From Gemmatimonadota bacterium (lineage in GTDB: Bacteria > Gemmatimonadota > Gemmatimonadetes > Longimicrobiales > Gaopeijiaceae): a stretch of DNA of 64,000 bases. Position numbers and translations under genes: made by a program. The stretch spans positions 1 to 64,000 of the forward strand of contig JAJCZZ010000093.1 in assembly GCA_029262115.1 (NCBI GenBank). Direction: 5' to 3'. Below the pieces are notes generated by a model that had not been told where the DNA came from, made no database searches, and saw only the letters and a program-made list of their open reading frames with translations. Of this stretch, positions 14,723 to 51,910 are shown in pieces. Positions within the stretch are counted from its first letter, which is position 1. Each line of letters starts with the position of its first letter.

Positions 14723-15190
14723 ATGCCGACATACGAATATCGGTGCTCACAGGGGCACCAGTTCGATGTGTTTCAACGCATGTCTGACGAACCTGTAGCC
14801 GTGTGCCCCGAATGCGGCGACCCGGCGACCCGCCACATCTCCGGGGGCGCGGGATTCCTGTTCAAAGGAGAGGGGTTCTACATCACCGATTACCGGAGCG
14901 ACGACTACAAGAAGAAGGCGTCGTCGGAAAAGGGGGAATCCGCTCCGGCAGAATCGGGAGGGTCGGGCTCCAACGGGAAGGGTGAAGCAGCAGGGGGATC
15001 GTCCGGCTCGAGCGATTCTTCGTCGGGTTCCGGCGGCTCCGCCTCGGGTGGTTCGTCGCCCGGCGGCGGCTCCTCGTCCGGCGCCTCGGCGCCGGGGAGC
15101 GCCCGGTCGTCCGGCAGCTCCTCCTCCGGCGGCGGGTCCTCGTCGGGCAGTTCGTCGTCCGGCGGCTCGTCCTCCTCCTCCAAGGACTAG
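14723..15190 (+). CDS. FmdB-family zinc-ribbon protein with long Ser/Gly tail
   Basis: A 155-residue protein. Residues 1-60 are a standard FmdB regulatory-type zinc ribbon: MPTYEYRCSQGHQFDVFQ, then VCPECGDPATRHISGG and the GFYITDYRSDDY motif common to the family. The remaining ~90 residues are Ser/Gly/Ala low complexity, far longer than usual, and coded by repetitive TCG/TCC/GGC triplets. It is probably cytoplasmic; its role may be in a small complex or translation-related and is not established. It precedes argS by 7 bases. Confidence 0.85.
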   Translation: MPTYEYRCSQGHQFDVFQRMSDEPVAVCPECGDPATRHISGGAGFLFKGEGFYITDYRSDDYKKKASSEKGESAPAESGGSGSNGKGEAAGGSSGSSDSSSGSGGSASGGSSPGGGSSSGASAPGSARSSGSSSSGGGSSSGSSSSGGSSSSSKD

Positions 15191-15197
15191 GCGCGAC

Positions 15198-16904
15198 GTG
15201 CCGCAGGACGCGATCCGCGCCGCCCTCGATTCGGCGCTGAAGACGATGGGGGTCGAGGAGGCGGAGATCCACCTGGAGCGTCCCCGCGACCCCGACCACG
15301 GCGACTTGTCCACCAATGTGGCCCTGACGCTCGCCCGGACGCTGAAGCGCGCGCCTCGCGCCATCGCGGAGGAGTTGGCCGAGAGGGTCGACCTCGATGC
15401 TGCCGGCGTCACCGCGATGGAGATCGCCGGGCCCGGCTTCCTGAACTTCCGGCTGGCCTCAGGCGCCGTGGCCTCGGTCCTCGCCGAGATCCTGGCCGCG
15501 GACACGGACTTCGGTCGCAGTGAGAAGGGGCACGACGACACGGGCACGCCGCGCCCCGCCATGGTGGAGTTCGTGTCGGCCAACCCGACCGGGCCGCTCC
15601 ACCTGGGGCACGGTCGCCAGGCTGCCTTGGGCGACGCCATCGCGGAGTTGCTCGACTGGGCGGGATGGGCCGTCCACCGCGAGTACTACTACAACGACGC
15701 GGGCAACCAGATCGACCGGTTGGCGGCTTCGGTCCGCGTGCGCTATCTGCAGCACTTCGGCCGTGACGCTGAGATGTCCGACGACGGGTATCAGGGCGAC
15801 TACATCGAGGAGATCGCGACCGCGTTCGCCGCCGAGGTGGGCGACCGATACGTCGACGACACGTCGGACGACTCCCTCGACGCCATGCGCGTGTTCGCGG
15901 TCCGCCTCCTCCGCGCGGAGCAGGATCGTGACCTCGCGGACTTCGGCGTGCACTTCGACGAGTACTTCCTGGAGTCATCTCTTTACACGGATGGCCTGGT
16001 CGCGAGTACGGTCGAGGCGCTGAAGGCCACCGGGCATGTCTTCGAGCAGGACGGCGCGACCTGGCTCCGGACCACGACATTCGGAGACGACAAGGACCGC
16101 GTGATGATCCGCGGCAACGGGCAGCCCACGTACTTCCTTCCCGACGTTGCGTATCACCACAACAAGTGGTCCCGAGGCTTCCGCCGCGTCATCAACGTGC
16201 AGGGCTCGGACCACCATGGGACCGTCGCGCGCGTCCGTGCGGGCCTCCAGGCGCTCGGCCTGCCCGCGGGGTACCCCGAGTACGTGCTCCACCAGATGGT
16301 GCGCGTCGAGCGGGACGGTGTGCAGGTGAAGTTCTCCAAGCGCGCCGGGTCGTACACGACCATGCGGGAGCTCTTCGAAGAGGTGGGCGTCGACGTTGCC
16401 CGTTATTTCCTGCAAATGCGCAAGCCGGACGCCCAGATGGTCTTCGATCTGGACCTTGCCCTGGACCAGTCCGACAAGAACCCGGTCTTCAAGATCCAGT
16501 ACGCGCACGCCCGCATGTGCTCGATCTTCGCCAAGTCCGACGTGAATCCGGGGGATACGCAGCCGGGCTCGGCCGACCTGAGCCTCCTCACGCACGACCT
16601 GGAGCGCGAGCTGATCAAGGCGCTCGGAGACTTTCCGGATGCGCTCCGGCGCGCCCTGGACGCCGAGTCGCCCCACGTGGTCTGCGACTACCTCGGGCAG
16701 ACGGCGGCGGCGGCGAATTCGTGGTACCACTCCGGGAACCCTTCCAGGAACCCCGACCTGGCGGTACTCGTCGACGACGCCGGGCTGCGCACGGCCCGAC
16801 TGGCCTTGGCGGACGCCGTGCGGATCGTCCTACGCAACGGGCTCTCCGTACTGGGCATCAGCGCACCCGAGCGCATGGACCGAGCGGGCACGAGCGACGA
16901 CTGA
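15198..16904 (+). CDS. argS: Arginyl-tRNA synthetase
   Basis: A 568-residue class Ia synthetase that charges tRNA-Arg. Seen: the N-terminal Add1-type region (DPDHGDLSTNVALTLARTLK), the HIGH equivalent in ANPTGPLHLGHGRQAALGD (~131-149), the YYYNDAGNQIDRL block, and QGSDHHGTVARVRAGLQALG. In place of a KMSKS loop there is VKFSKRAGSYTTMRELFEEVG, typical of many ArgRS. The C-terminal DALR anticodon-binding domain contains YAHARMCSIF. The GTG start at 15198, close to the upstream stop, gives the family length. An upstream in-frame extension through the Ser/Gly-coding stretch is rejected as a shadow. Confidence 0.95.
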   Translation: MPQDAIRAALDSALKTMGVEEAEIHLERPRDPDHGDLSTNVALTLARTLKRAPRAIAEELAERVDLDAAGVTAMEIAGPGFLNFRLASGAVASVLAEILAADTDFGRSEKGHDDTGTPRPAMVEFVSANPTGPLHLGHGRQAALGDAIAELLDWAGWAVHREYYYNDAGNQIDRLAASVRVRYLQHFGRDAEMSDDGYQGDYIEEIATAFAAEVGDRYVDDTSDDSLDAMRVFAVRLLRAEQDRDLADFGVHFDEYFLESSLYTDGLVASTVEALKATGHVFEQDGATWLRTTTFGDDKDRVMIRGNGQPTYFLPDVAYHHNKWSRGFRRVINVQGSDHHGTVARVRAGLQALGLPAGYPEYVLHQMVRVERDGVQVKFSKRAGSYTTMRELFEEVGVDVARYFLQMRKPDAQMVFDLDLALDQSDKNPVFKIQYAHARMCSIFAKSDVNPGDTQPGSADLSLLTHDLERELIKALGDFPDALRRALDAESPHVVCDYLGQTAAAANSWYHSGNPSRNPDLAVLVDDAGLRTARLALADAVRIVLRNGLSVLGISAPERMDRAGTSDD

Positions 16905-39303: not shown

Positions 39304-39656
39304 GGGGGCGTCACGGTTTCGACGTGTTTGGTGAACGTGGAGGTGCGTGTCGAGGTCCCGGACCTCGTAAATCCCTGGGAAACTTTATAGCTGCCAACAA
39401 CAACATGGCGCTGGCCGCGTAAGTAACCCTTACGTAGCTCGCTCCCGGTTCGGCCCGCCTGAGGCGGGGCCGGGAGCGTCGATAAGTCAGGCTGGTCTGC
39501 CACTCACGCCTTCGGGGCGGTGGACGAGATTTTAGAAGGCTGGTTTCGGATGCGGTTGTTCACTGGCCGCCCGGAATGAGATCAATCAGTGGTCTACGCA
39601 CGTAGAGCCTCTGCAGGACCCTTTCGCGGACGCGGGTTCGACTCCCGCCGCCTCCA
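39304..39656 (+). ncRNA. ssrA: Transfer-messenger RNA (tmRNA)
   Basis: The acceptor stem pairs GGGGGCG (39304-39310) with CGCCTCC (39649-39655), discriminator A at 39656. GTCACGGTTTCGACG is the usual 5' block, and GCGGGTTCGACTCCCGC forms the T arm. The tag reading frame starts at GCC 39393 and gives ANNNMALAA before TAA at 39420-39422. It ends in the ALAA degradation signal that rescues stalled ribosomes. CCA is not encoded. Pseudoknot-type G/C repeats follow the tag (39440-39545). Confidence 0.95.
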
Positions 39657-39660
39657 CTGC

Positions 39661-39702
39661 GAGAAGCCCCTTCGGTCAACCAAGGCCGTAGGGGCTTTCT
39701 CG
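39661..39702 (+). terminator. Terminator hairpin after ssrA
   Basis: GAGAAGCCCC at 39661 pairs with GGGGCTTTCTC at 39691-39701, with one looped-out T, around a 20-base loop that can itself fold. Short T-rich end. Confidence 0.6.
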
Positions 39703-39721
39703 TATTGCGGCCATTCCCGGT

Positions 39722-39760
39722 CGCAGTGGAGGCGGCGGGCCCCGAAGGTCGACTCCCGCC
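39722..39760 (+). repeat. Inverted and direct copies of the ssrA 3' end (att-like)
   Basis: Bases 39722-39739 are the exact reverse complement of 39644-39661, which spans the ssrA 3' end. Bases 39749-39760 repeat TCGACTCCCGCC of the ssrA T arm (39638-39649) in direct orientation. Such fragments next to ssrA usually mark integration events. The accessory region starts here. The rest of 39761-40050 holds no gene I can support. Confidence 0.65.
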
Positions 39761-40053
39761 TGGCGCCCGCGACCATTCAAAATCGTCCGGACGGCGCATC
39801 GGTCGGGGCACGCCGGGAGCCGAACCCCCGCGGACTCGGCGCAGCCGAGGACGCCGAGCGGGGACGACCCGAGGCGGTGGGGCGGACGAGCGGGTGAGCG
39901 GCAGCGGATCTGCTCGGCTCGGTGGAGTTGCTCGCCCGGCGCGTTTGTGATCGTTCCCCGTAGGTCGGTGGGATGGGGCGCTCCTGGGGAACGCACACAC
40001 ATTTGCCGTCGCAGTGCCGGACTCCAGTCGCTCAGTCTTTCCGATGGAGGAAC

Positions 40054-40088: not shown

Positions 40089-40340
40089 ATGGCCCTGAAC
40101 ATCAAGAGTGACGAGGCTCACGAATTGGCCCGTGCCCTCGCGGAGGCGAGCGACTCGAGTCTCACAGAGGTCGTGACGAAGGCGCTACGGCGATCTCTCA
40201 ACGAGGTCACGAAGAGCACTGAGGAGTCGTTGCTGCTTGCGGAAGTGGCCGAGATCCAGCGATTCGTCGCGGACCTTCCCACCCGGGACTCCCGCTCGGC
40301 CGAGGAAATCCTGGGGTACGGCCCCGCGGGGCTTCCCTGA
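40089..40340 (+). CDS. VapB-family antitoxin (type II)
   Basis: An 83-residue antitoxin of the VapB/PSK-operon transcription factor type. It starts MALNIKSDEAHELARALAEASDSSLTEVVTKALRR, a ribbon-helix-helix DNA-binding domain. The C-terminal part ends RSAEEILGYGPAGLP, the typical toxin-binding tail of the family. A clear CCGGAGGA ribosome site precedes the ATG. The toxin gene starts 3 bases after the stop. Confidence 0.9.
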   Translation: MALNIKSDEAHELARALAEASDSSLTEVVTKALRRSLNEVTKSTEESLLLAEVAEIQRFVADLPTRDSRSAEEILGYGPAGLP

Positions 40341-40343
40341 TCC

Positions 40344-40736
40344 GTGGTCATCGACTCGTCGGCGTTGATTGCGATCCTCCTGGGTGAGCCCGACGCCCAT
40401 GACCTGGTCCGGGCCGTGGCCCGAAGCGGAGATCGGATTCTCGGCGCCCCGACCTGGGTCGAAGCGTCTGCGGTCATGCTGGCCAAGAAGGGCCCGGCAG
40501 GCGAGGTGGCGCTGGACGCGCTGATCGAACGGATGCGCATCCGCATCGTACCTCTGTCCGTGGACGCAGCGCGTTTGGCGCGGTTGGCCTACGCCCGGTT
40601 CGGAAAGGGGGTCGGGGATCCCCCGGTCCTGAACTACGGGGACTGCCTCGCTTACGGGGCCGCCATGGCCGAGGGCCACCCCCTCCTGTTCAAGGGCGAC
40701 GACTTCAGCCGCACCGACGTGGACGTGGCCGGGTAG
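40344..40736 (+). CDS. VapC-family PIN-domain toxin
   Basis: A 130-residue PIN ribonuclease. Acidic metal-binding residues are intact: Asp4 (VIDSSALIAIL), Glu40 (PTWVEAS), Asp100 (NYGDCLAYG) and Asp119/120 (FKGDDF). The target is probably tRNA or rRNA, as in other VapC. It starts with GTG just after the antitoxin. Both genes look functional. Confidence 0.92.
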   Translation: MVIDSSALIAILLGEPDAHDLVRAVARSGDRILGAPTWVEASAVMLAKKGPAGEVALDALIERMRIRIVPLSVDAARLARLAYARFGKGVGDPPVLNYGDCLAYGAAMAEGHPLLFKGDDFSRTDVDVAG

Positions 40737-43439: not shown

Positions 43440-43983
43440 GGGCGGAGCCGAAGATCCGTGGCCGCCCATACATGGCGGTTGTCCTCGTGAATCCTCCAGA
43501 TCGTTTCCGCAAGCTCGGCGTCGCGTAACACTCGAACCGAGGGCGGACGCCGCAGCCAAGCGTGCTACCCGCTGGGGGAGAGCCCCAGCCCTCGGCACAT
43601 CGCCCGGATCGGAAACTCGGCCTGGTGTCGCTTCACGAACTCGAACCCCGTCCCGGGATCGAGTCGCTCTCCCGGGCGAACCAGGCCGCGGCTTTTGGGG
43701 GGATATCGCGCTCCATCCGCAACCGCCGATTCTCGCGCTTCAACCGCCTGACCTCCTCCCGCTCGTCCGTTGTCGGTCCATCGCTGCGTACGCACTCGTC
43801 CACGTCAGCCTGCTTCACCCAGTTCCGGATCGCTCCGGCCGAGGCCTCAAACTCTCGTGCAAGGTCCTCCGGCGAACGTCCTGAGCGCACCAACTCGACC
43901 CGCTCCCGTCGATATCCCGGCGGGTACGGCGGACTCGTTCTCGGCGTCGTAAACTCCTCCCGTGTGAACCTCGTCCAATGCAT
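43440..43983 (-). mobile_element. IS3-family insertion sequence relic (orfA plus broken orfB)
   Basis: orfA is 43983-43633: an N-terminal helix-turn-helix (YRRERVELVRSGRSPEDLAREFEASAGAIRNWVKQAD) and a leucine-zipper part (EREEVRRLKRENRRLRMERDI). orfB begins in another frame near 43660 with FEFVKRHQAEFPIRAMCRGLGLSPSG. It continues after a frameshift as LRDAELAETIWRIHEDNRHV and YGRPRI, then ends near 43440 without the DDE catalytic core. The element is inactive. I could not define its inverted repeats. Confidence 0.8.
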
Positions 43984-47893: not shown

Positions 47894-48136
47894 TTATCTT
47901 GTCGGACCTCCGGCCGGTTCTCGTTCGCGCGACTCTCGTATCGCGGCCAAGATCTCAGCCCTTTCGACTCCGGTATCCACCCCCGGAACGTCCAACGGAG
48001 ATTTCCCCGGTGTCACCGGGCGAACAGCAAACTCGGTTCCGTCCCGCCGCTTGATACGGATCTCGCCGCCCGTACGAGCCTCGTCCAGGACCCGGGCCAA
48101 TCGCTGCCGCGCCTCAGTGTACGTGTAGACTTTCAT
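47894..48136 (-). CDS. Phd/YefM-family antitoxin
   Basis: An 80-residue antitoxin. MKVYTYTEARQRLARVLDEARTGGEIRIKRRDGTEFAVRPV is the Phd fold (Y-T-x-A-R-x-x-L-x-x-x-L-D-x-A). The C-terminus ERAEILAAIRESREREP would bind the toxin. The ATG overlaps the toxin stop by four bases, and the antitoxin gene comes second, the reverse of the usual order. The start at 48136 is chosen over an in-frame 48184. Confidence 0.85.
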   Translation of the reverse strand: MKVYTYTEARQRLARVLDEARTGGEIRIKRRDGTEFAVRPVTPGKSPLDVPGVDTGVERAEILAAIRESREREPAGGPTR

Positions 48137-48531
48137 GACTCCACCTCCAGAACTTCGATTCCCAGCCTCCTGGCTATCTCGCACTGCGCCCGGTCAAGCG
48201 AGAGCAGCGGAGTCGCGTACCGTCGAGCGCACTCCAAGACGTACGCGTCATACGCGTAGACACCGTGGTCGTGTCCGAGCTTCACTGCCTCCTGTAGATC
48301 CACGTCCACAAGATGGACGGGGATACCCTCAAATGACTCCAGTGCCTTCTGAGCCTGCGCCAGGTCGATACGCCCGCGTTTGAAGAGCGCCGTCAGCGCA
48401 TTGCCGACCTCCCAGGAAAGCGATGCCGCGGAGCGAAGGTCCGCACCCTCCGTGGCGCGAAGCAGTGCGGGCTTCGTGGGCTCGTTGAGGATCACCGCGA
48501 TGACGATCGACGTGTCTACCGAGATCTCCAA
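48133..48531 (-). CDS. PIN-domain toxin, encoded first in its operon
   Basis: A 132-residue PIN ribonuclease. ISVDTSIVIAVILNE (Asp6), SWEVGNAL (Glu41), YAYDAYVLECARR (Asp95) and LLSLDRAQCEIA (Asp113) supply the metal-binding set; all are intact. The toxin gene precedes the Phd-type antitoxin, with an ATGA overlap. A perfect 14-bp palindrome lies 22 bases upstream. Confidence 0.88.
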   Translation of the reverse strand: MEISVDTSIVIAVILNEPTKPALLRATEGADLRSAASLSWEVGNALTALFKRGRIDLAQAQKALESFEGIPVHLVDVDLQEAVKLGHDHGVYAYDAYVLECARRYATPLLSLDRAQCEIARRLGIEVLEVES

Positions 48532-50445: not shown

Positions 50446-51033
50446 CTAAACCAGCGTACCGACCCGGGCGCGGAGTCGTGGGACGACGTCACGCTCAAAC
50501 CACGGATTCCTCTTGAGCCACACGCGGTTCCGAGGGCTCGGGTGCGGCATGGGAAGGACAGAAGGCCAGGTGCGACGCCAGTGTGTCACGGCCTCGGTAA
50601 CAGAGGTGGTGGACCCCGAGAGGTGCCACCTCTGGGCATAGCCTCCAACCACCAACGTGAGCTCAACGGATGTCAGATGTTCAAGGATGGCCTCCCTCCA
50701 CGCCGGCGCACACTCAGGGCGGGGCGGTAGATCACCATGTGCCCCGGTCCCCGGGTAGCAGAACCCCATGGGAAGGATGGATACGATGTTGGGGTCGTAG
50801 AATGCTCCGCGGTCGATGCCCATCCAGTCCCGCAAGCGGTCCCCACTTGGGTCATCGAAGGGCACGCCACTGTCGTGGACCCGGCGGCCTGGTGCCTGCC
50901 CCGCGATGAGGATACGAGCACCTCTGTCAGCCTGGACCACAGGACGACAGCCGTGGGGGAGGTGAGGGTCGCACAACTTACAGGCAGCTACCCGACTCAG
51001 GATAGCCTCGAGCGGCTCGGTGGAGGTTGTCAC
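50446..51033 (-). CDS. Uracil-DNA glycosylase superfamily protein
   Basis: A 195-residue protein. CKLCDPHLPHGCRPVVQ, ILIAGQAPGRRVHDSGVPFDDPSGDRLRDWMGID (GQAPG is the water-activating motif region), SILPMGFCYPG, and LPMPHPSPRNRVWLKRNPWF (HPSPRN, the DNA-intercalation motif) fit the UDG family that ends in HPSPRN. It probably acts in base excision or as a single-domain relative. The GTG start overlaps the cupredoxin stop. Confidence 0.85.
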   Translation of the reverse strand: MTTSTEPLEAILSRVAACKLCDPHLPHGCRPVVQADRGARILIAGQAPGRRVHDSGVPFDDPSGDRLRDWMGIDRGAFYDPNIVSILPMGFCYPGTGAHGDLPPRPECAPAWREAILEHLTSVELTLVVGGYAQRWHLSGSTTSVTEAVTHWRRTWPSVLPMPHPSPRNRVWLKRNPWFERDVVPRLRARVGTLV

Positions 51034-51365
51034 CGGACGATCACCTTCCCAGTCATGGTCGGGTGGAACTCACAGAGGTAGGGCAGGACTTGACCTTTTC
51101 CCACGACCCACGTGAACGCTTCCCCGGATCCGATGGACCCGGACTCCATTCCATCGACTTCGCCGGTAACTGTGTGCGGGACGATGTCGTGGTTGATCCA
51201 GGTGATGGTGTCTCCCGCCTCTACCTCGATGGCGTCTGGGTCAAAGGCAAGGTCACGAATGTCGACCTGATGATGAACAGGAGGGGGATCAGTGCACCCG
51301 GAGGCGGTCCCCGCAAACGCGAGGACCGCCATCAGCAGAAGCGGGTGCGGCTCAGGCAAGGTCAC
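51030..51365 (-). CDS. Cupredoxin (plastocyanin-like) lipoprotein
   Basis: A 111-residue blue-copper protein. The N-terminal signal ends TASGC (Cys24), a possible lipidation site. The domain has VEAGDTITWINHDIVPHTVTG (first His ligand, ~62) and LPYLCEFHPTMTGKVIV with Cys, His and Met ligands. It is likely periplasmic. Coupled by GTGA to the DUF4142 gene upstream and to the glycosylase gene downstream. Confidence 0.9.
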   Translation of the reverse strand: MTLPEPHPLLLMAVLAFAGTASGCTDPPPVHHQVDIRDLAFDPDAIEVEAGDTITWINHDIVPHTVTGEVDGMESGSIGSGEAFTWVVGKGQVLPYLCEFHPTMTGKVIVR

Positions 51366-51910
51366 TCGTTCATTCCGGTAACGCTCCGGACCATTCGCTC
51401 CGCGTGCTGCTCATGTCCGCGGAAGATCGCAAGAGCTTGTCGGAACGCTGCCTTCACCTCGCCGTTCTCGATGTTGGGAATGAACGCGTCGGCTACCACA
51501 CCGTTTACGGTCTGATGGTAGGCGAGCTCATTGCTGGCGTACCGGCGATCGAACTCTGCGCCCCGAAGCCGGCTCAGTTCGTCCTTGATCCGCTTCGCGT
51601 CATTGAGCAGTTGGCGACTCAGGGCGTTATCCACGGCTTGAACGTTCAACTTTTCCGCGAGGGCCACGACCTGACCGTTCACTGCCGAGTGGTCTCGGAT
51701 CATGGTCTCTGCGAAGGCACGGATCTCCGGGTTCTCGGACAGAGCCAAGGCCAGATGGGCGTAGGCGATGTCGATATTGCTGGCGGTGACCGCAACATGG
51801 GCCATCTCGACATCGCTGAGGTCCGCCTGAGCCGCGAGGGGCGAGAAACCGGTCAGCGCCAGGACCGGGACGACCAGGAGTCGAACTGCACGAAATGACT
51901 TCACTCTCAT
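51362..51910 (-). CDS. Secreted DUF4142 protein
   Basis: A 182-residue protein with a signal peptide (~10-28, VVPVLALTGFSPLAAQA). The rest is a helical ferritin-like bundle: VAVTASNIDIAYAHLALALSENPEIRAFAETMIRDHSAVN (motif AxxMIxDH), LLNDAKRIKDELSRL and FDRRYASNELAYHQTVNGVV, then HAERMVRSV. It is the first gene of DUF4142-cupredoxin-glycosylase-acetyltransferase, divergent from the AraC gene. Role unknown; related proteins occur in stress loci. Confidence 0.88.
   Translation of the reverse strand: MRVKSFRAVRLLVVPVLALTGFSPLAAQADLSDVEMAHVAVTASNIDIAYAHLALALSENPEIRAFAETMIRDHSAVNGQVVALAEKLNVQAVDNALSRQLLNDAKRIKDELSRLRGAEFDRRYASNELAYHQTVNGVVADAFIPNIENGEVKAAFRQALAIFRGHEQHAERMVRSVTGMNE

Follow-up and report, generated by a model that had tools for sequence, protein, structure and literature searches.

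The 3' end of the tmRNA gene (ssrA) is repeated, once inverted and once direct, in the DNA that follows this gene in the window, i.e., the 64,000-nucleotide stretch of Gemmatimonadota DNA analysed here, and these repeats are probably what is left of a decayed array of short elements. The elements would belong to a gene-less family that integrates site-specifically in the T-loops of tRNA and tmRNA genes and is probably moved in trans. An earlier note on this DNA had taken the repeats as an integration scar that marks ssrA as the attachment site of one or more islands; comparison with related genomes revealed that the inverted copy belongs to short gene-less elements that are also present at several tRNA genes, and is not a one-off island scar.

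The repeats behind ssrA in the window

The tmRNA gene of the window is full and intact according to both ARAGORN and Rfam, and the part of it that is repeated downstream comprises the T-arm and the 3' half of the acceptor (Table 1). The inverted copy of this region, previously given as 18 bp, is real and one nucleotide longer, with 39721-39739 being the exact reverse complement of 39644-39662 (19 nt) and the pair extending to 26 nt. The two arms of the inverted pair are separated by 58 nt that include the terminator-like hairpin; a hairpin is found at the same place behind ssrA in the relatives, with a different sequence. The similarity of the inverted copy to the ssrA end is far above chance, given that its alignment score is 36 and that about 3000 random windows of 155 nt taken from the same contig scored 14.4 on average and 26 at most. 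Elsewhere on the contig, which has 106,682 nt, the longest exact inverted word is 11 nt. A chance origin of the inverted copy was rejected by these random-window scores and by the pattern controls described below.

Table 1. Features of the ssrA region of the window, and loci of genus g7 where an integrase lies beside a unit
Feature	Position	Strand	Basis or detail
ssrA (tmRNA gene), target	39304..39657	+	ARAGORN; Rfam RF00023, 182 bits
Region of ssrA that is copied (T-arm, 3' half of the acceptor)	about 39631-39656	+	
Terminator-like hairpin (CGAGAAGCCCC ... GGGGCTTTCTCG) separating the direct copy from the inverted one	39660..39702	+	sequence
Inverted copy of the ssrA 3' end	39721..39746	-	exact over 39721-39739, 88% over 26 nt
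Direct copy (12 nt) of the T-loop and the 3' strand of the T-stem of ssrA	39749..39760	+	identical to 39638-39649
Second unit, apparently decayed: inverted T-arm, hairpin CTCGGC-GCA-GCCGAG, and remnant (GGGGACGACCCGAGG) of the L/body start	39811..39877	+	homology versus shuffles
Integrase beside a unit in genus g7 (G007, G387)	L190, L292, L293, L187, L297		

The direct copy of the T arm reported in the same note is also present, and we read it as the collapsed right end of the first unit; taken alone, this 12-nt copy is weak evidence, and 11 nt of the ssrA tail recur elsewhere on the contig. Behind it lies what appears to be a second unit. The segment 39811-39891 is homologous to the element found behind ssrA in the relatives (score of 82 with G004, versus a maximum of 49 in 300 shuffles), and its arm is homologous to the arms behind ssrA in genomes G004, G005, G007 and G013. 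The body of the element, as represented by the profile R1 described below, gave no convincing match in the window, and the arm folds no better than shuffled sequence (z of 0.2); the copy in the window appears to be decayed. The ORF called at 39594-39776 on the minus strand, with the peptide RRRESNPRP, is spurious, i.e., merely the antisense of the tmRNA T-arm.

Architecture of the unit in related genomes

As read from the relatives, a complete unit has about 145-320 bp and a well-defined order of parts. Behind the 3' end of the tmRNA or tRNA gene come a terminator hairpin, the T-arm and the acceptor as an inverted copy, a second hairpin, the T-arm's 5' half, a body of 75-125 nt, the T-arm's 3' half with the acceptor as a direct copy, and the next terminator; sometimes the units are in tandem. 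The copy of the T-arm is split by the body in the T-loop, near nucleotides 58/59, and it is at about this same position that the identity of the right end begins. Inverted copies were scored at those 26 of the 30 ssrA loci that had enough downstream sequence. A clear inverted copy of the own ssrA end was found just past the terminator in nine of these, the window's own locus included, with scores from 24 to 51, and the other 17 gave scores of 17 or less; G005 scores 57. The inverted copy matches the local gene together with its trailer (CACTCAGGC in G005, CATGGCCCCC in G021 and CACTGCGA in the window). Its sequence is complementary to the 3' strand (TGGAGGCG) and does not reproduce the 5' strand (GGGGGCG), and therefore the inverted copy arose from the DNA of the gene's end.

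The number of units differs among relatives. The complete genome G005 has three tandem units behind ssrA, each of them followed by a terminator, with terminators of unlike sequence among these; at loci L083, L084, L096, L100, L105 and L113 there are two or more units, or a second one has begun. In G002, inspection by eye places a unit between the ssrA T-loop and the sequence that directly joins ssrA in G016, and the two genomes look like the same site with and without a unit. Contigs C29 of G010, C232 of G017, C579 of G013 and C275 of G011 stop at the ssrA 3' end or a short way past it; repeated units that break assemblies would have this effect, and such arrays may do so. Short tandem repeats, for instance TGGCACACATTTGGCACACA or TGTGCAAGTTCCTGTGCAAGTT, were observed past the ssrA copies in loci L003, L005, L011, L018 and L105; by eye, they look like arm-type integrase sites.

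In the closed multi-branch shape predicted for single units, both the final direct copy and the split T-arm are paired with the inverted arm. The inner hairpin of the arm is kept in most of the 16 arms compared, its stem sequence changing from one to another (15 different stems in a simple scan that misjudged a few), and the z-scores of the arm folds versus shuffled sequences go from -7.0 to 0.2. A hairpin that is kept with changing stems would agree with a folding constraint, and equally with a process that makes palindromes.

Homologous bodies at tRNA genes

An element specific for ssrA, as the nucleotide search had suggested, was dropped as a candidate, given that the tRNA-Pro and tRNA-Cys genes of G005 show the same layout, each with an inverted copy of its own 3' end past the terminator. 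A scan of 40 tRNA genes of this genome detected clear direct copies at the Ser, Cys and Pro genes, and weaker scores at two others. The motif GGTTYGASCCGAGS of the body is located 45-135 nt behind tRNA-Ser, -Pro, -Cys, -Arg or tmRNA genes in the genome of the window (tRNA-Ser, contig C109) and in G005, G189, G007, G020 and G002; its further matches are copies within the same arrays, or lie in ORFs, in old inserts or elsewhere. The bodies found at ssrA and at the tRNA-Ser, -Pro and -Cys genes align with one another. The body profile R1 was built from 15 sequences, and since its RNAalifold structure has two pairs only, it is effectively a sequence profile. It matches 47 of the 96 genomes of the family (E<=0.001), with up to 13 copies.

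The right ends were analysed in the 108 strongest of 124 body matches, at loci that come mainly from the best-scoring part of the matches in the family. A tRNA or tmRNA gene lies upstream, on the same strand and within 700 nt, of 66 of these copies, and in 60 of the 108 the right end is the 3' half of the upstream gene, beginning in the T-loop (26 Pro, 17 Ser, 5 Cys, 5 Arg, 4 tmRNA and 3 Leu). Among the other 48 copies, 33 match the 3' end of some tRNA or tmRNA, versus 1 of 48 shuffled tails. In total, 93 of the 108 end in a tRNA or tmRNA 3' end that starts from the T-loop (Pro, Ser, Cys, Arg, Leu or tmRNA), a figure somewhat favoured by the choice of the loci and by the profile, which includes 4 nt from the start of the 3' half and was built on copies adjacent to tRNA genes; 15 copies have no recognisable tRNA end. 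A weak body match on the contig of the window (L032:3543-3646, 18.8 bits), with no tRNA-like end, was set aside.

Inserts between ssrA and lspA

The order dus-ssrA-lspA is conserved, with 50-150 nt from ssrA to lspA in G009, G019, G022 and G012 (in G012 the dus gene was not called). The adjacency of ssrA and lspA is broken by inserts of about 1.3 kb in G014, 6.2 kb in G004, 10.6 kb in G006, 28 kb in G007 and 62.5 kb in G005, and therefore ssrA is a place of DNA entry. The integrase domain PF00589 was found in none of these five intervals. In the genome of the window, lspA is located on a different contig (C59), a search to the right of ssrA revealed no second 3' fragment of the gene within 67 kb on the contig, and no PF00589 match is present on this contig (C93), with 11 matches elsewhere in the genome; therefore no island can be delimited. 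The proposal that ssrA serves as an attachment site for islands consequently stands in one part: the sequence behind ssrA is variable in the relatives, and the 3'-end copies that start in the T-loop resemble attachment-site duplications. Its other part, an island next to ssrA in the window, did not find support, given that none is delimitable and that the inverted copy is unlike a simple integration scar.

The contrast drawn earlier between the two sides of ssrA is mild only (G+C of 67.7% to the left and 65.1% to the right); the toxin-antitoxin pairs and the insertion sequence relic described on the right side are indeed there, as two pairs and one transposase relic identified with Pfam. One pair (40089-40736, plus strand), formed by an Rv0623-like antitoxin and a PIN toxin, lies right behind the array; the other (47894-48531, minus strand) has a Phd/YefM-type antitoxin and a PIN toxin, and the transposase relic (43633-43980, minus strand) shows an HTH_Tnp_1 domain. 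The genes of the window to the right of ssrA have no counterpart in the stretches of the relatives that were compared, except for two neighbours (51030-51910) with 40-44% identity to the G005 interval; beyond the window, the contig gene at 87328-88530 finds a match of 33% in the stretch of G021. An integrase-like ORF behind ssrA (L002:1-1320, 440 aa), with a fragment at L012:1190-1393 (68 aa), was discarded as a candidate, Pfam giving a weak zinc-ribbon only; by eye, the two have in common an integrase-like C-terminus.

Distribution of the pattern

A pattern formed by a tmRNA end, 48-78 nt and an inverted T-arm was searched in 84,980 genomes, and 21 matches were obtained: 13 in Gemmatimonadota, 3 in Spirochaetes, 3 in Wenzhouxiangella and 2 in other Pseudomonadota. 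The tmRNA was confirmed by ARAGORN in 20 of them, the remaining one being cut by the end of the locus, and the number of matches expected by chance is estimated at below one. Outside Gemmatimonadota, a whole unit with a second terminator is present in three of the eight loci (L085, L090 and L099), and in the other five there is little past the inverted arm or the sequence ends too early. The body model has no matches outside this phylum, where the architecture alone is in common. Within the phylum, a similar pattern was detected in 20 of 395 genomes, 19 of them among the 94 genomes of f1, the family of the window, and the reversed control pattern matched 6 genomes of the same phylum set; one extra match in the phylum, on contig C245 of G397, seems to be due to chance. 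The strict phylum pattern is not found in the window itself. The tmRNA and inverted-arm pattern gave 0 matches in viral contigs. A viral origin was also tried and rejected: the 19-mer of the arm matched one viral contig only, inside what by eye is an apparent phage coding gene.

Candidate recombinase

An integron integrase (TIGR02249) is present in 17 of the 96 genomes of the family, including that of the window, where a full copy (349 bits) is located away from the window, on contig C58 at about 15004-15933 (L047, L285), with no convincing body copy next to it. The body is present in 14 of these 17 genomes versus 33 of the 79 others (Fisher p 0.003, kinship uncorrected). Three of the 19 integrase matches are within 200 nt of a body, all of them in genus g7, where the integrase starts just past the unit (Table 1), such units following tRNA-Ser in both G007 and G387 and, in G007, also a 3' fragment of tRNA-Pro; the other 16 have no body nearby. 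G005, with several units, has no integron integrase, and the attC core GTTRRRY/RYYYAAC was not found by eye in the units. As the general recombinase of the family this enzyme is weakened as a candidate, being near the body in one genus only, and we regard it as a lead and not as a result.

A model for the units and its alternatives

The architecture, the homology of the bodies at several kinds of RNA genes, the T-loop junction and the presence or absence of units among relatives are observed, whereas the mobility of the units, the order of their insertion, the recombinase that acts on them and the decay of the copy in the window are inferred. A site-specific recombination event in the T-loop would insert a unit, and the incoming unit would supply the 3' half of the gene anew, together with a terminator, leaving the tmRNA or tRNA intact and displacing the old 3' half downstream. 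Repeated insertion would generate tandem arrays, in which successive 3' halves may carry different terminators; tandem duplication could be an alternative source of the arrays. Units without genes would be moved by recombinases encoded elsewhere, either by islands in the same tRNA genes or in the form of integron-type integrases; no movement of the units has been observed and no recombinase is generally tied to the family. A further version, to which we give a low probability, has the unit as a single-stranded-DNA cassette, in which the inverted arm and the split direct arm would form a complete T-arm duplex, one strand of it continuous and the other broken at the crossover point. The units would then be inserted into the T-loops of tRNA and tmRNA genes by tyrosine recombinases, either of the integron type or of the host Xer type, and the gene-less arrays would use tRNA genes as attI. 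Folded single-strand sites are known from the attC of integrons and from the folded attP of CTX-type phages.

The repeats could also be att remnants of one or more ordinary integrase-bearing islands inserted in ssrA. The inserts that break the ssrA-lspA adjacency in five relatives speak for islands, and so does the presence of a body with an ssrA 3' end about 16 kb downstream in G016 (L259) and 8 kb downstream in G007 (L188), in the manner of the right ends of inserts. However, islands leave a direct copy and not an inverted one, the homologous bodies are found in units of 150-260 bp that are too short for an island, and PF00589 is absent both from the 106-kb contig, which also lacks a second fragment, and from the five ssrA-lspA intervals; we consider this origin unlikely. 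A purely mutational origin would dispense with mobile elements, the polymerase switching strands at the terminator hairpin, so that the end of the gene is copied in inverted order, and unequal exchange producing the tandem copies. Strand switching explains the inverted copy well: in G005, G021 and G000 (the genome of the window) the copy runs into the trailer past the mature tmRNA end, and was therefore copied from local DNA, and in G027 (L015) the ssrA end and its terminator are duplicated in tandem almost perfectly. It does not explain the homologous bodies, since their presence in the T-loops of ssrA, tRNA-Ser, -Pro and -Cys needs dispersal; moreover, many genes should have terminators, and in G005 only ssrA and 3 of the 40 tRNA genes (Ser, Cys and Pro) are clearly copied, so that this explanation seems to us distinctly improbable.

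The least probable of the explanations considered, and one to which we give very little credence, is a functional RNA or regulatory structure, in which the unit would be transcribed with or against the tmRNA and would control its processing or termination. The stable multi-branch folds and the hairpins kept in spite of changing stems would be natural in such a structure, but many relatives in the family lack it behind ssrA, its copy number varies within one genus (G005 versus G105 and G189), and the same bodies are found behind several different tRNAs; Rfam gives only the tmRNA and weak tmRNA_permuted and miRNA-like matches.

Relation to known systems

Integron cassettes are short units organized in arrays, and their attC sites are imperfect palindromes that fold as single strands. 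The units described here are likewise short and found in arrays, and an integron integrase adjoins a unit at two kinds of loci in genus g7; they differ in that the site is a tRNA T-arm, that no attC core was seen by eye, and that the adjacency to the integrase is not general. MITEs and the small palindromic repeats of the REP type are short, non-coding, multi-copy sequences with terminal inverted repeats. In contrast, the termini of the units copy the local tRNA gene and their position is tied to tRNA and tmRNA ends; at the T-loop junction at most 1 nt is duplicated, as judged by eye, and no target-site duplication of the transposase type, which together with terminal inverted repeats related to a transposase family is expected of MITEs, was seen.

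The units also resemble the islands that integrate in tDNA. In the parts of the Islander report considered here (PMC4383910), the target gene of these islands is also restored by a 3' copy, a displaced 3' fragment remains at the far end, occupancy may be in tandem and the crossover is near the T-stem; the units differ from them in their size of about 145-320 bp, the lack of genes and integrase, and the presence of an inverted copy inside. According to the same parts of that report, Islander discards candidates that are shorter than 2 kb, that lack an integrase or that have the fragment in the opposite orientation, the latter serving as a measure of false positives; therefore units of this kind would be filtered out. 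The ssrA islands of Dehalococcoides, as presented in the main text of PMC3146451, also show insertion in the middle of the tmRNA T-loop and tandem direct repeats of the 3' end behind ssrA; unlike the units, they carry gene modules and CcrB-type serine recombinases, and the word "inverted" is absent from that main text. No comparable units were found in the open-access literature, including the consulted portions of PMC3146451, PMC9897764 and PMC4383910. As in tDNA islands, a direct 3' fragment lies downstream of the intact gene (12 nt in the window, and in the relatives the 60 of 108 copies mentioned above) and the crossover falls in the T-arm part of the gene; no PF00589 integrase is found on the contig of the window, and the units are too short to encode one. 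We read the element as resembling a tDNA-integrating island reduced to its attachment region, and do not call it an island because an integrase inside the element is absent.

Transfer RNA and tmRNA genes are common entry sites of mobile DNA, and how the target gene is kept working is a classic question. If the reading of the repeats as a mobile gene-less family is true, a family that is matched to six kinds of RNA genes, and whose members consist of hardly more than the target's 3' half, a terminator and a palindrome, isolates the function that restores the target, and represents a natural experiment on how the specificity for an attachment site changes. The units may show how tRNA genes get restored after the insertion of DNA.
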